A stretch of 64,000 nucleotides of DNA from Buchnera aphidicola (Periphyllus lyropictus). GTDB lineage: Bacteria; Pseudomonadota; Gammaproteobacteria; Enterobacterales; Enterobacteriaceae. The position numbers and the translations under genes were made by a program. Shown here in pieces: positions 38,259-47,879 of the stretch. The stretch spans positions 372,001-436,000 of the forward strand of contig NZ_CP097457.1 of the NCBI RefSeq assembly GCF_024029895.1, written 5' to 3'. The notes under the pieces were generated by a model. That model was not told where the DNA came from and ran no database searches. It worked only from the letters and a program-made list of their open reading frames with translations. Each line of letters opens with the position of its first letter. The stretch's first letter is position 1.

Positions 38259-38313
38259 AAATTAAAATTTATAAAATATAAAAAAAAAAAAAAAAAAAAA
38301 GAAAAAAATTCAA

Positions 38314-38690: not shown

Positions 38691-38745
38691 AAAATTATAG
38701 AAAAAATAAATTAAAAAAATCTTAAAATATTAAAAAAAAAAAAAC

Positions 38746-38776
38746 TTATAAAAATATTTTTTTATAAAATTTTTTT
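38746..38776 (+). terminator. candidate ssrA terminator
   Basis: A 9-bp A/T stem (38746-38754 with 38759-38767), a four-base loop and then seven T residues (38770-38776), about 55 bases past the mature tmRNA end. The stem has no G-C pair, so it would be weak. Confidence 0.35.
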
Positions 38777-39173
38777 AAAATTTATAAAAAATTAATTTTT
38801 TTATTTTAAAAAAATAAAAAAAAAAATAAAACTTATATTTCCTCTTAAAAAATTAATTTATATTACTTTAATAAAAATTTAATAAAATATTTAATAAAAT
38901 AAAAAGATTTTTATAATTATTAATAAATTAATTATTAAATTCTTATAAATATTATTATTTTAAAAAAAAATTAATTTCTTTATTTCTTTATTTTTTTAAA
39001 AAAATGAAAATATCTCTTAAATTAATAATAAAATTTTTAGAAATTAACTTTTATATTTAAAAATACTATAAAATAAATAAAAATTTTTTATGAAAAATCT
39101 TAGGAAAAAAAATGGAAAAATCAATAAAAAAAAAGATAAAAAAAAGAAAATAAAAAACAAATAAAAAAAATAA
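38777..39173. other. gene-free A/T stretch before the grpE relic
   Basis: About 400 bases with no recognisable gene. Near its end, an AGGA motif and an ATG at 39112 open a 13-codon frame (MEKSIKKKIKKRK) that could be the remains of a grpE start, but it is in another reading frame from the grpE-like part and has stops in between. Confidence 0.4.
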
Positions 39174-39584
39174 AAAAACAAGAAAAAAAAATATTTAAAT
39201 ACCTTAAATAAAATATATAATGTTAACAATTCAATTTCTAAAATTAAAAAAAATATTAAAGAAATTCCATTAAGAACTTTAGCTTATATAGAAAATATAA
39301 AAAAAGAATATTACAAAAAATTTAATAAAATAAAAAGAGAAAAAAAAAAATTCTTCTTTGAAAAAATATTAAATGTATTAACAAATATTAATAAATTAAT
39401 TTCTAAAATATCAAAATTAAACTTTAAAGATAATCCTAAATTTCAAGGAATATTTTTAATTCAAAAAAATTTTTTAGAATTTTTAAAAAAAAATAAAATA
39501 AAAATAAATAAAAAAAAAAAAAAAAATAGAAAAATAAAAAAAAAAAAAAAAAGATTATTTTTATATATTTTAAAAAATTTATAA
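39174..39584 (+). pseudogene. grpE: decayed grpE (Hsp70 nucleotide exchange factor)
   Basis: An open frame without any ATG. Its translation contains LRTLAYIENIKKEYYKKF, which matches the long-helix part of GrpE (E. coli LRVKAEMENLRRRTELDI), followed by FFFEKILNVLTNINKLI (E. coli FALEKFINELLPVIDSL) and a weaker match up to about residue 95. After that the sequence is lysine repeats from A tracts and ends at TAA 39582. The C-terminal beta domain that contacts DnaK, including its GY and R-IRPA motifs, is absent. The upstream part has stops in all frames among poly(A) runs. Position beside ung fits the Buchnera grpE1 locus as I recall it. Function is unlikely unless slippage restores a start. Confidence 0.75.
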
Positions 39585-39585
39585 A

Positions 39586-39615
39586 AAATGGCTTAAAATT
39601 AAATTAAAGCCATTT
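39586..39615 (-). terminator. intrinsic terminator after ung
   Basis: A perfect 9-bp stem, AAATGGCTT at 39586-39594 with AAGCCATTT at 39607-39615, and a 12-base loop. On the minus strand the stem ends in a run of six T. It starts 31 bases past the ung stop codon. Confidence 0.65.
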
Positions 39616-39646
39616 ATCTAAAAAAAATTAGGTTTTTTTTAAAAAA

Positions 39647-42362: not shown

Positions 42363-44867
42363 ATGGAAAAATTTGCTCGAGAAATTACAAAAATAAAAAT
42401 AGAAAAAGAACTTAAAAATTCTTATTTAGATTATGCTATGTCAGTAATAATAGGAAGAGCTTTACCTGATGTAAGAGATGGTTTAAAACCTGTACATAGA
42501 AGAATACTATTTGCTATGCATGTACTAAATAATAGATGGAATAAACCATATAAAAAATCTGCAAGAATTGTAGGTGATGTAATTGGAAAATATCATCCTC
42601 ATGGAGATACAGCAGTATATGATTCTATTGTAAGAATGGCTCAATTTTTTTCATTAAGATATATGTTAATTGATGGACAAGGAAATTTTGGATCAATTGA
42701 TGGAGATTCTCCTGCAGCAATGAGATATACTGAAATAAAAATGTCTAAAATAGCACATACTTTATTAAATGACTTAGATAAAAATACAGTAAAATTTGTT
42801 AAAAATTACGATGGATCAGAAAAAATACCAGAAATTCTACCTGCAGAAATTCCAAATTTATTAATTAACGGATCATCAGGAATTGCTGTTGGAATGGCTA
42901 CAAATATTCCTCCGCATAACTTATGTGAAACAATCGATGCATGTTTAAAATACATAAAAAATCCAGAAATTAGCATAAAAAATTTAATGAAATATCTTCC
43001 TGGTCCAGATTTTCCAACATTTGGAATTATTAATGGAAAATCAGGAATTAAAGAAGCATATGAAACTGGAAAAGGAAAAATATATTTAAGAGCACGTGTA
43101 AAAATAGAAAATAATTCAAATAACAAAAAAAAATCAATAATAATATATCAACTACCTTATCAAACTAATAAATCTAAATTATTAGAAAAAATTGCTTTAT
43201 TAGTAAAAGAAAAAAAAATAGAAGGAATTTCTGCTTTAAGAGATGAGAGTGATAAAGATGGAATGAGAATAGTTATAGAAATTAAAAAAGAATCTATTTC
43301 TGAAATTATTCTTAATAAATTATATTCATTAACATCTTTACAAACTTCTTTTGGGATAAATATGGTTGCATTATATCAAGGTCAACCAAAATTAATGAAT
43401 TTAAAAGAAATATTAAATTCTTTTATTTCACATAGAAAAGACATAGTAACAAAAAGATGTATATTTAATTATAAAAAATATAAAAAAAAAAGTAATTTAT
43501 TAGAAGGATTAACAATTGCTTTAAAAAATATAGATAAAATAATTTTATGTATAAAAAATTCTAAAAATACAAAACAAGCAAAAAAAATACTATTGTCTAA
43601 AAAATGGAAAACAAATTCTTTTGTTAAAAAATTATTACAAAATAAATTAAAAAAAAATAATAAATTAGAAAAATATACTTTTTCTAAAGAACAAGTTAGA
43701 AAAATATTAAATACAAAATTACATAAATTAACTACTTTAGAATATAAAAAAATAATTTTTGAATATAAAAATTTAATAAAAAATATTTCTTATTTAAAAA
43801 AAATATTAACAAATAAATTTAAAATGATTGAGCTTATAAAAAAAGAACTAAAAATAATTAAAAAAAAATTTGGTGATGAAAGGAAAACAGAAATTACAGA
43901 TAAAACTTGTGATATTGCTATTAAAGATATGATAACGTCAGAAAATGTAGTTGTTACTTTATCACGTTCGGGATATGTAAAATATCAACCAATAACAGAA
44001 TATGAAGCTCAAAAAAGAGGAGGAAAAGGAAAATATGCAGCTAAAATGAAATCTAAAGATTATATTGAAAATTTAATTGTAGCAAATACTCATGATACAA
44101 TATTATGTTTTTCTAGCAAAGGAATTATTTATTGGATGAAAGTATATCAATTACCAGAATCTAGTCGTCATTCTAGAGGAAAACCAATAGTAAATTTATT
44201 ACCATTAAGTTTAAAAGAAAGAATTACAGCTATTTTACCATTAAAAGAATATAAAAAAAAAAATAATATATTTATGGCTACTGCTTTAGGAATTGTTAAA
44301 AAAACTTCTCTAAAAGCATTCAAAAATCCTAGAAATAAAGGAATAATTGCATTAAATTTAAAAAAAAATGATGAATTAATTGGAGTTTCTTTAACTAATG
44401 GAAAAAATAATATTATGTTATTTACATCAAAAGGAAAAGTAGTTCAATTTTCAGAAAAACATGTTCGATCAATGGGAAGAAACGCAACAGGAGTAAGAGG
44501 AATAAAAATAGATAAAAAAGATAAAGTTGTATCTTTAATAATACCTAAAAAAAATGGAGAAATATTAGTAATTACTCAAAAAGGATACGGAAAAAGAACT
44601 AATATTAAAGAATTTCCTATAAAATCTAGATCTACAAAAGGAGTAATATCTATAAAAATAACAAAAAAAAATTTATCTGTTGTAAAAGCAATTCAAGTAA
44701 ATGAAAATAATCAAATAATGATTATTACTAATGCTGGAAAACTAGTAAGAACAAGAGTATCAGAAATAAATATTTTAAAAAGAAATACTCAAGGGGTAAT
44801 TTTAATTAGAATGTTTAAAAAAGAAAAAGTAGTTGGATTACAAAAAATTAAAGAAAAATTAATATAA
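42363..44867 (+). CDS. gyrA: DNA gyrase subunit A
   Basis: Breaks and rejoins DNA during negative supercoiling. The 834 residues have the catalytic Tyr122 in AAMRYTEIK. The quinolone-resistance region reads [15 protein letters not shown], so residue 83 is Thr where E. coli has Ser, and Asp87 is kept. The GyrA box, QRRGGKG in E. coli, is QKRGGKGK here, followed by the six-bladed C-terminal domain. E. coli GyrA has 875 residues; the acidic C-terminal tail that regulates wrapping is missing. Confidence 0.97.
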
Positions 44868-44882
44868 AAAAACAAAAAATAA

Positions 44883-44990
44883 TTATATGAAACTATATCT
44901 ACTTTTAAAATTTCTTTACCTAAACCAATTATATACGGAGTAAAAAATCCTAAAAAAATTAGGTTTTTTTTATGTATTAATAAAATATAA
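44883..44990 (+). pseudogene. nrdA: fragment of nrdA (ribonucleotide reductase large subunit)
   Basis: Begins 13 bases after the gyrA stop with no start codon. The translation reads LYETISTFKISLPKPIIYGVKNP, and over 18 residues STFKISLPKPIIYGVKNP matches E. coli NrdA STFKISLPTPIMSGVRTP. This is an internal piece (about residue 200 of the E. coli protein); homology fades where the active-site cysteine would follow. It ends at TAA 44988. Nothing else of the roughly 2.3-kb gene is recognisable. The gyrA terminator lies inside it. Confidence 0.8.
44942..44971 (+). terminator. intrinsic terminator after gyrA
   Basis: CCTAA at 44949-44953 pairs with TTAGG at 44959-44963. Six A (44942-44947) pair with the T run at 44964-44971 across one bulged T, and the loop is five A. 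A compact, T-tailed hairpin 75 bases past the gyrA stop, located within the nrdA relic. Confidence 0.6.
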
Positions 44991-45351
44991 TGATAATTTA
45001 AATTTAACTAATTCTATTTAAAATTCTATTATAAAACATATTTAAAAAAGAGTTAGAATTAAAATAAATAAAATAAATATAATAAATATAAAAATAATTG
45101 AAAGTTTTATAAAAAGTAGAAAAAAATTTCATAAAATATATATACACTTTTTATAAATATTTTAAAAAAACTATTAAATAATTTTTTTAATAATTAACAA
45201 AAAAAAATTAATTTATTTAATATTCCTAATTTATATTAATATTTTTTTAATTAAAAAAAAAAAAAAAAAAAAATAGAAAAATAAAAAAAAGATATTAAAA
45301 ATTAATAAAAAATAAAAAAAAACCTTATAATTTTTTTAATAATTAACAAAA
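44991..45351. other. decayed interval between nrdA and nrdB relics
   Basis: 361 bases of A/T sequence where most of nrdA and the first two thirds of nrdB would have been. I recognise no homology. It holds one copy and the start of a second copy of a 32-33-base direct repeat, and a run of more than 20 A. Confidence 0.5.
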
Positions 45352-45358
45352 AAAATTA
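45178..45358. repeat. 32-33-base direct repeat flanking decayed DNA
   Basis: The string at 45178-45210 recurs at 45327-45358, differing only by one A in a poly(A) run. The copies are 149 bases apart. The second copy touches the recognisable nrdB remnant. Confidence 0.6.
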
Positions 45359-45591
45359 GATAAAAATATTTATTTAAAAATAAATTAATACTAGGTTTAA
45401 ATAAAGAAATTTTATATTAATAAATTAAATATATAAATAATATTCAAATAAAAACTATAAATTTTAAATCATACTTTAAAGTTTTTTTTAATCCTATTCC
45501 TTGGATTAATTCTTAGTTAATTTAAGATAATTTTTAAGTTACTCCTTAAGAAATGGAAAATACTTCTTATTCAATTAGACAAATTAATTTA
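45352..45591 (+). pseudogene. nrdB: C-terminal remnant of nrdB (ribonucleotide reductase small subunit)
   Basis: One reading frame aligns without gaps to the C-terminal part of E. coli NrdB: YLFKNKLILGLNKEIL against YLFRDGSMIGLNKDIL, then FNPIPWINS against SNPIPWINT, and ENTSYSIRQI against EVSSYLVGQI. The frame is interrupted by stop codons at 45361, 45418, 45421, 45514, 45523, 45535 and 45547. Where E. coli residues can be compared, several stops fit single transitions (Trp TGG to TAG; Gln CAA to TAA). There is no start, and the iron-binding N-terminal domains are gone. It ends in a run of about 21 A. Confidence 0.85.
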
Positions 45592-45743
45592 AAAAAAAAA
45601 AAAAAAAAAAAATATAAAATACAGAATTTAAAAAATTTAAATTATAAAAAAAAACATGAAATCAATTTATTTTATTCAAAAATATCTAGTAATATAATCA
45701 TTAAACTATATCCTATAAAATTAAACATTTAAAAAATATTTTA

Positions 45744-47879
45744 TTACTTTATCATATCAGATTGAATTGCTGTTAAAGAAATAGTATATAAAATATCTTG
45801 TATAGATGCTCCTCTAGAAAGATCATTTACTGGTTTTTTTAAACCTTGAACAATAGGACCTATAGAAATAATTGAACTATTTCTTTGTACAGCTTTATAA
45901 GTTATATTTCCACTATTTAAATCAGGAAAAATAAATACATTCGCGTTTCCAAAAAGTTTAGAATTAACACATTTTGTTAATGAAACTTCTATATCAGTTG
46001 CTGCGTCATACTGTATAGGACCTTCTATAATTAAATCAGGACATTTTTTATGAACTAATTCTGTAGCTTTTTTGATTTTTTCAACCATTAATCCTGATCC
46101 AGAATCATTAGTAGAATATGATAACATTGCTATTCTTGGATCAATTCCAAAATTTCTTGCAGATTCAGAAGATTGTATAGCAATTTCAGATAAATCAAAC
46201 GCATTAGGATTAGGATTAATAGCACAATCTCCATATATAAGAACTTTATCTGGAAATAACATAAAAAAAATTGAAGAAATTAAATTTGTTTCTTTTTTCA
46301 TTTTTATTAATTTTAAAGCAGGTCTAATAACATCAGCAGTAGTATTAATAATTCCAGCAACTACTCCATCATATTTATTATTATGAATTAATAAAAGCAT
46401 AGATAATGCAATATTATTTTTTTTTAAAATATCTTTACATTCAATTAAAGAAAGATAATTATAAACTTCTCTAAAATAATTAATATATTTTTTTCTTAAA
46501 TAATCAGGATTAATAACTATTATTTCTTTAGGTAATGAAAAACCTAAAACTAAAGATTTTCTTTTAATTTTTTTAATATCACCTAATAATACACAATTAC
46601 ATAAATTTAATTTAAAACATAAATAAGCAGCTTGAATAATTTTTTCATTTTCTCCTTCTGGTAAAATAATAGTTTTTTTTTTTTTTATTAATTTATTTTT
46701 TATTTGATATAAAAATTGATAAGAACATAAATCATTATTCTTTTTATTTTTATTTAAAAAAAATGAATATATTTTATCAGAAAGAAAAGAAAAATTTACT
46801 TTTTTTATTAATTTTTTTTTATTTTTTTTATTATTTATCATACTTATTTTATTTAAAAAATAAAATAAATTTTTATATTTTTCTTTTAAAAAAAATATTG
46901 AAACTCCTAATTTTTTTAAATTAAAATATAAATCACTTTGAAGAAAATCTATAAAATTATTTCCTAAAATCAAGATAGAAAACAAAATATTATTATTTTT
47001 TATAAATTTATTAATATTTTTCAAAATTAATTTATTAGATAAATTAATAATTAATAATGTTTCTTTTTTTAAATCACTAATAATATCTAAAAAATTATTT
47101 GAACAAAAAAGAATTAATTTAAAACATATATCTTTAATATCAGCTAAATAAATAACTTCTATTTTTAATTTTTTTAAAAAAATACTTCTTTTTAATGAAA
47201 TATTTTTTTTAAAAGAACAAATACCTAGTATTGGAATTTTTTGATATTCTATTAAATTAAAAGAAAAATTATTATTTTTTTTTAAAGAATTGTGTGAAGA
47301 ATTAGATAAAAAAAATTTATTAAACAAATTAAAACTATCAAAATTAATATTATTTAAAAAATTAATTATTAATCCAGAATTTTTAAAACGATTAAATATC
47401 ATAAAATATTTTTTTATAATATGTATTTTATAATTTAAATCTTTAATAAAATTATTATCTGGAGTAATTATAAAAAAAATTTCAGCATCTAAAATTCTTG
47501 CTATATCTAAATTTAATTGATTAAAAAAATCCATAGAAATATCTTTATTATAAGAAATTCCTTCAATTAATGAAAATTCATTAAAATTATTTTTATAATA
47601 TCTATTAAAAATTTTTTCTAAAAAATCAGAATAAATTTTAGAATTTAAAAAATAATTAAAATTTTTTATACAAACAGAAGGTATAATATTTATTAAATTA
47701 AATTTTTTTTTTAAATAAGAAAAATAATCTTCTGATTTATATATAGAATTTTTTTTTATAAAAGGATGAAAAAAATTTAAATTTATATTTTTTTTTTTTA
47801 AAATATTTAATAAACCTAATGAAACAGAATTTAAACTTTTATTTTTTCCTATTGGAATTAACATAATTGTACGAGACAT
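45744..47879 (-). CDS. pta: phosphate acetyltransferase
   Basis: Interconverts acetyl-CoA and acetyl phosphate, feeding AckA for ATP. At 711 residues it is the long E. coli type (714). The N-terminal P-loop-like domain (about 1-220) and the middle DRTGG-type domain (to about 350) are much eroded, with runs of Asn, Lys, Phe and Ile. The catalytic domain (about 390-711) is well kept, with LPEGENEKIIQAA, YDGVVAGIINTTADVIRPAL, ARNFGIDPRIAMLSYSTNDSGSG and GPIQYDAATD. It shares a transcript direction with ackA, 54 bases downstream. Confidence 0.95.
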   Translation of the reverse strand: MSRTIMLIPIGKNKSLNSVSLGLLNILKKKNINLNFFHPFIKKNSIYKSEDYFSYLKKKFNLINIIPSVCIKNFNYFLNSKIYSDFLEKIFNRYYKNNFNEFSLIEGISYNKDISMDFFNQLNLDIARILDAEIFFIITPDNNFIKDLNYKIHIIKKYFMIFNRFKNSGLIINFLNNINFDSFNLFNKFFLSNSSHNSLKKNNNFSFNLIEYQKIPILGICSFKKNISLKRSIFLKKLKIEVIYLADIKDICFKLILFCSNNFLDIISDLKKETLLIINLSNKLILKNINKFIKNNNILFSILILGNNFIDFLQSDLYFNLKKLGVSIFFLKEKYKNLFYFLNKISMINNKKNKKKLIKKVNFSFLSDKIYSFFLNKNKKNNDLCSYQFLYQIKNKLIKKKKTIILPEGENEKIIQAAYLCFKLNLCNCVLLGDIKKIKRKSLVLGFSLPKEIIVINPDYLRKKYINYFREVYNYLSLIECKDILKKNNIALSMLLLIHNNKYDGVVAGIINTTADVIRPALKLIKMKKETNLISSIFFMLFPDKVLIYGDCAINPNPNAFDLSEIAIQSSESARNFGIDPRIAMLSYSTNDSGSGLMVEKIKKATELVHKKCPDLIIEGPIQYDAATDIEVSLTKCVNSKLFGNANVFIFPDLNSGNITYKAVQRNSSIISIGPIVQGLKKPVNDLSRGASIQDILYTISLTAIQSDMIK

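Follow-up and report, generated by a model that had tools for sequence, protein, structure and literature searches.

Does a run of in-frame stop codons in a symbiont genome mark a gene fragment that is still constrained, one that was inactivated very recently, or one that simply decays? This question is raised by positions 45352-45591 of the window, i.e., the whole stretch of 64,000 nucleotides analysed here (GC content, 18.7%), which corresponds to positions 372001-436000 of the genome of Buchnera aphidicola from Periphyllus lyropictus (456,890 bp in one contig; hereafter, G000). A sequence-only reading had recognised in this region the remains of nrdB, and had taken point mutations without frameshifts as a sign of recent inactivation or of some remaining constraint. 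Using 11 genomes of the genus (G000-G010, with G000 included), we compared the locus with its counterparts in relatives. It should be noted that Buchnera plasmids are outside the single contig of G000. We hold with high confidence that the locus is a dead, neutrally eroding nrdA-nrdB(-yfaE) operon between gyrA and pta, in a cell that lacks ribonucleotide reductase and to which the host cell or a co-symbiont would supply deoxynucleotides.

A frame that aligns to the C-terminus of NrdB without a gap is present as had been described; its homologous part comprises 75 codons (225 bp), i.e., codons 5 to 79 of the frame of about 80 codons that had been proposed. In a phmmer comparison with PDB chains, this remnant matched residues 288-362 of the 375-residue chain of E. 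coli NrdB (E=1.9e-16). Compared to the intact NrdB proteins of seven relatives in the genus, it has 42-45 identical residues over the 75 codons (55-59% identity, E from 4.2e-25 to 2.5e-27). A profile built from these seven proteins scored 80.2 bits in the gyrA-pta spacer, compared to at most 4.5 bits in 200 dinucleotide-shuffled versions of it; the reported stretch of this match extends upstream into badly aligned DNA. Residues 1-287 of NrdB were not reliably detected in the spacer by the profile search. A Pfam search with the 80-aa fragment returned no family at E<=1, and a search of the whole G000 genome with PF00268 missed the remnant, so that the evidence for it comes from direct comparison with NrdB. 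We found homology beyond chance, a location that matches that of intact nrdB in relatives, and a broken frame with most of the protein gone, as in a pseudogene. The match to NrdB means that the relic stands, and sequence comparison confirms the putative NrdB relic at 45352-45591 as real and rightly recognised.

Very low GC content is known from these searches to inflate some weak matches, such as one in G005 at 193 kb (E=1.9e-4), and the remnant could accordingly be suspected of being a chance similarity in A/T-rich DNA, or a product of assembly error. The distance between 80.2 bits and the shuffle maximum, the PDB match, and the synteny with the intact operon of relatives all stand against chance, and homopolymer errors would not be expected to produce six stops by substitution or a shortened interval; we give this explanation practically no credence. 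The G005 match itself is located outside the gyrA-pta spacer, in overlap with an ORF of 187 aa, presumably tsaC; we read it as spurious as a relic. Two further weak NrdB matches, C5 in G004 and C4 in G002 (both E ~0.05), were set aside.

All seven stop codons noted previously are in the frame; six of them are inside the homologous part, and the seventh, at 45361, is one codon upstream of it, at residue 287 (Ala in six relatives, Ser in one), where the match has already faded. The proposal that several stops arose by single transitions from Trp or Gln codons holds for four of the six: those at 45418 (Gln in 7/7 relatives), 45535 and 45547 (both Gln), and 45514 (Trp). The stop at 45421 corresponds to Tyr and is a transversion. 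The stop at 45523 corresponds to Ser, and can be reached by a single transversion from TCA, the codon of two relatives, or by two changes from TCT, the codon of the other five.

The remnant is one of several in the interval between gyrA and pta (Table).

Table. Features of the gyrA-pta interval and its flanks in G000 (window coordinates)
Feature	Position	Strand	Remarks
gyrA, upstream flank, intact	42363..44867	+	ORF of 834 aa; 72-86% identity across the 10 other genomes of the genus
nrdA remnant, NrdA profile positions 194-225	44877..44975	+	19.9 bits; maximum of 200 shuffles 5.2
T8 tract by the frame change in the nrdA remnant	44964..44971	+	adjoining frames end/start at 44975/44974
nrdA remnant, NrdA profile positions 226-285, next frame	44974..45162	+	20.4 bits; maximum of 200 shuffles 5.2
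Uncertain additional nrdA trace, positions 349-405	45195..45353	+	score 1.2; 95% shuffle level -0.8, maximum 5.2
A21 tract	45253..45273	+	shares second place in length among the A/T runs of the window with a run at 38280
nrdB remnant	45364..45588	+	aligns without a gap to NrdB residues 288-362; contains six stops
A22 tract	45591..45612	+	longest A/T run of the window; stands where the NrdB C-terminal tail is expected
Weak possible yfaE remnant, profile positions 62-88	45631..45711	+	score 3.4; 95% shuffle level 3.9
pta, downstream flank, intact	45744..47879	-	ORF of 711 aa; 40-54% identical in 10 other genus genomes

The spacer is 876 bp long, compared to 3,794-3,848 bp in the seven genomes with the intact operon, i.e., 77% of the length is gone. 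Only 9 bp separate the gyrA stop from NrdA position 194, and about 200 bp separate NrdA position 285 from NrdB residue 288; these short distances indicate at least two large deletions. Within nrdA, the frame changes beside the T8 tract, and we infer a slip in this tract as its origin, just as the mutational mechanism of each of the other indels is deduced from what is left. Thus, frameshift and deletion did act on the operon, and the gap-free nrdB remnant is its best surviving scrap; the argument from missing frameshifts to remaining constraint fails on these grounds, and on the fit of the neutral model described below. The remnant begins 90 bp downstream of the A21 tract and ends 2 bp upstream of the A22 tract, at the place where the seven intact relatives have 13 more residues. 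The yfaE trace is not significant by itself, and what speaks for it is its position, which is as expected.

Two other features of the window were noted. A 34-nt direct repeat (85% identical; 45174-45207 and 45323-45356, 149 bp apart) closely precedes the nrdB remnant. About 950 bp (38694-39646), flanked by tmRNA and a gene for uracil-DNA glycosylase, have no listed ORF of 80 aa or more and contain A17 tracts at 39510 and 39536; this region is perhaps another gene ruin.

We then ask whether the surviving codons carry a trace of selection. At sites with a G or C that is invariant in the seven relatives, 20 of 42 are changed in the relic, compared to 4 of 107 invariant A/T sites. The GC content of the 225-bp remnant is 13.3%, and that of the same codons in the seven relatives is 23-28%. 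Differences from the consensus at the first, second and third codon positions number 19, 13 and 20 in the relic, compared to 2-11, 1-6 and 18-22 in functional lineages, each of which was compared to the other six. In a one-phase model, in which all substitutions of the relic are randomly placed on the consensus, 4.8 stops are expected and six are observed (P(>=6)=0.33); the expected amino acid identity is 36.8/75 and the observed identity is 44 (P=0.0015), which counts against a one-phase neutral reading. We attribute this excess of identity to third-position changes that preceded inactivation. In a two-phase model, which starts from real functional sequences and adds one neutral phase, the expected identity is 44.1/75, compared to the observed 44 (P(>=44)=0.56), and 3.8 stops are expected, compared to the observed six (pooled P(>=6)=0.15; 0.07 to 0.19 depending on the starting sequence), so that the observed number of stops is on the high side. 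The relic itself supplied the rates of the two-phase model (for A sites, of which 0/57 changed, one pseudocount was added), and the model is a consistency check only. The relic needs no constraint: neutral decay is compatible with both its identity and its stop count.

Conversely, the fragment might still be constrained if it yielded a short peptide, a product of read-through, or an RNA with a function. The 75 codons without an indel, and the identity above that expected in the one-phase model, are what such a constraint would predict. This interpretation is, however, very improbable, given the six in-frame stops, the loss of invariant G/C sites, and the compatibility of the two-phase neutral model with the data. 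Recoding of stop codons was considered and rejected: TAA and TAG end eight and two, respectively, of the ten genes checked, and serve as ordinary stops there. As to a functional RNA, the folding z-score of the remnant is -0.76, with 43 of 200 shuffles folding at least as well, and tmRNA is the only Rfam match in the window.

Neutral decay of the operon leaves the question of its age. A very recent inactivation, with mutations that have not yet been followed by indels, would account for a remnant of NrdB that is easily recognised and has an identity above that of the nrdA ruin of G001. It is nevertheless unlikely, considering the missing length of the interval, the frame change inside nrdA, and the drop in GC content; with nearly half of the invariant G/C sites changed, the inactivation can be called recent in a relative sense only. 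A date from length was tried and rejected. Buchnera pseudogenes have a mean half-life of 24 Myr (Gomez-Valero 2004, in a passage of PMC7067036 that quotes it), and the 23% of length left would correspond to about two half-lives. Such an estimate is too noisy, as the spacers of the sister genomes G001 and G002 retain 2,456 and 876 bp.

Across the genus, nrdA and nrdB are intact in the gyrA-pta interval of 7 of the 11 genomes, and in all seven, nrdB is followed by a small ORF of 86-92 aa, which we take to be yfaE from its place and cysteine pattern. Profile searches of the 11 genomes found no nrdA or nrdB match in G000, G001, G002 and G005. In the spacer of G001, each of the three forward frames has pieces of nrdA, the best of which scores 41.2 bits, compared to at most 0.7 for shuffles; a trace of yfaE (15.4) is also present, and nrdB is not clear. 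In that of G002, yfaE has left a relic of 30.0 bits, compared to at most 6.3 for shuffles. In the 373-bp spacer of G005, the nrdA, nrdB and yfaE profiles all score <=3.2 bits, which is within the shuffle range. Trees were built from three proteins, and from 20 of the 49 window ORFs tried, with G005 set as the outgroup. In both trees, G001 and G002 are sisters (support of 100) and fall in a clade with G006 and G007, in which the operon is intact (96 in the three-protein tree, 100/100 in the 20-ORF tree); G000 is outside this clade, and its own placement is poorly supported (52 and 99.1/57, respectively). These tree positions suggest that nrdAB was lost at least two times independently in the genus, in G000 and in the lineage of G001 and G002, provided that a lost operon cannot return in place. 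A third independent loss, in G005, is likely. G000 and G006 are apart in both trees.

Together with the decay of the locus, these observations point to the following course. The operon of class Ia ribonucleotide reductase, with its maintenance ferredoxin (yfaE, by position and cysteine pattern), was very probably inactivated in the lineage of the P. lyropictus Buchnera. Since then, G/C-to-A/T substitution, slippage in A/T tracts and large deletions have very probably worn the dead operon away in a neutral manner. The cell is left without ribonucleotide reductase, and would depend on the host cell or a co-symbiont for its deoxynucleotides.

The loss appears to extend to the whole genome: profile searches of the one-contig G000 assembly with PF00268, PF02867 and PF13597 (nrdB, nrdA and nrdD, respectively) returned no match, i.e., no reductase of class I, II or III was found. 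In a family sample of 149 genomes scored for a NrdB-family match, 140 have one, and the nine that do not, G000 included, are genomes of about 200-800 kb. The sequence-only reading had named dependence on host deoxynucleotides, or on another reductase, as the consequence of losing the class Ia enzyme. Without a reductase, deoxynucleotides would have to come from outside, and it is from this that we infer import, the imported form and its source.

The states of other nucleotide genes, which were scored by whole-gene profile searches in which decayed copies would not show, bear on the order of events. The thymidylate synthase gene thyA was found only in G008 and is absent from 10 of the 11 genomes, including six of the seven with nrdAB; thyX was found in none of the 11. 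This suggests that thymidine nucleotides may have been supplied from outside before nrdAB was lost. The tmk gene is above the cut-off in nine of the 11 genomes, G000 included, with a weak match below the cut-off in G001 and no match in G002, which suggests that G000 may still phosphorylate imported dTMP. A deoxynucleoside kinase (PF01712), searched for in G000, gave no match. deoB (TIGR01696) was found only in G005, G007 and G008; it is absent from G000 and from five of the seven genomes with nrdAB. Its loss is a frequent companion of reductase loss and not a defining one. The states of nrdAB and deoB agree in 5 of the 11 genomes and disagree in six (five with nrdAB and without deoB, and one with the reverse). 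A stepwise dependence would fit these states: thyA was lost first, nrdA-nrdB-yfaE then at least two times independently, and tmk only in the lineage of G001 and G002, so that import of thymidine nucleotides would predate and permit reductase loss, and reductase loss would not be what drives the loss of deoB. We offer this order tentatively, at slightly less than even chances. The window also contains a gene of the uracil-DNA glycosylase superfamily (PF03167; 39647-40312), which persists in a genome where thyA had no match.

Ribonucleotide reduction is nearly universal, and its loss therefore marks a deep dependence on the host. The wider value of the locus lies in what can be compared within one genus, where the operon is intact in some genomes, partly ruined in others and gone elsewhere, and where the thyA, tmk and deoB states cast doubt on the published coupling of deoB loss to loss of the reductase in Buchnera. 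Our literature search found no paper on this locus; it is weak evidence of absence, as most subscription journals were outside its coverage. In a term search, the main text of the P. lyropictus paper (PMC9317480) contained none of nrd, ribonucle and nucleotide.

The nrd locus of G000 is an ordinary case of gene loss, of a type already published for symbionts with shrinking genomes. What it may add is modest: independent losses, at least two in number, the disagreement between nrdAB and deoB, and the lack of thyA in six of the seven genomes that keep nrdAB. Buchnera pseudogenes in general drift from G/C to A/T, slip in homopolymers and are gradually deleted; the nrd relic fits this description, and we found no departure from it. 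According to passages of Arras et al. (PMC10121223), 24 of 74 Buchnera have no ribonucleotide reductase genes, and 22 of those also have no deoB; 48 of the 74 have both nrdAB and deoB, 22 have neither, and four are discordant. The same passages suggest that the loss of nrdAB or deoB often follows the loss of the other. Reductase loss is also known from Buchnera str. Cc, and the paper cites Perez-Brocal 2006 and Lundin 2009. Compared to the reductase-less Buchnera described there, G000 is the same: it has no reductase gene and, as in 22 of those 24, no deoB, and dependence on host deoxynucleotides would follow in both. The differences are that in G000 the ruin itself is mapped, and that the discordance between nrdAB and deoB is 6/11 in this genus, compared to 4/74 in those passages; this genus does not follow the published pattern of nrdAB-deoB co-loss.
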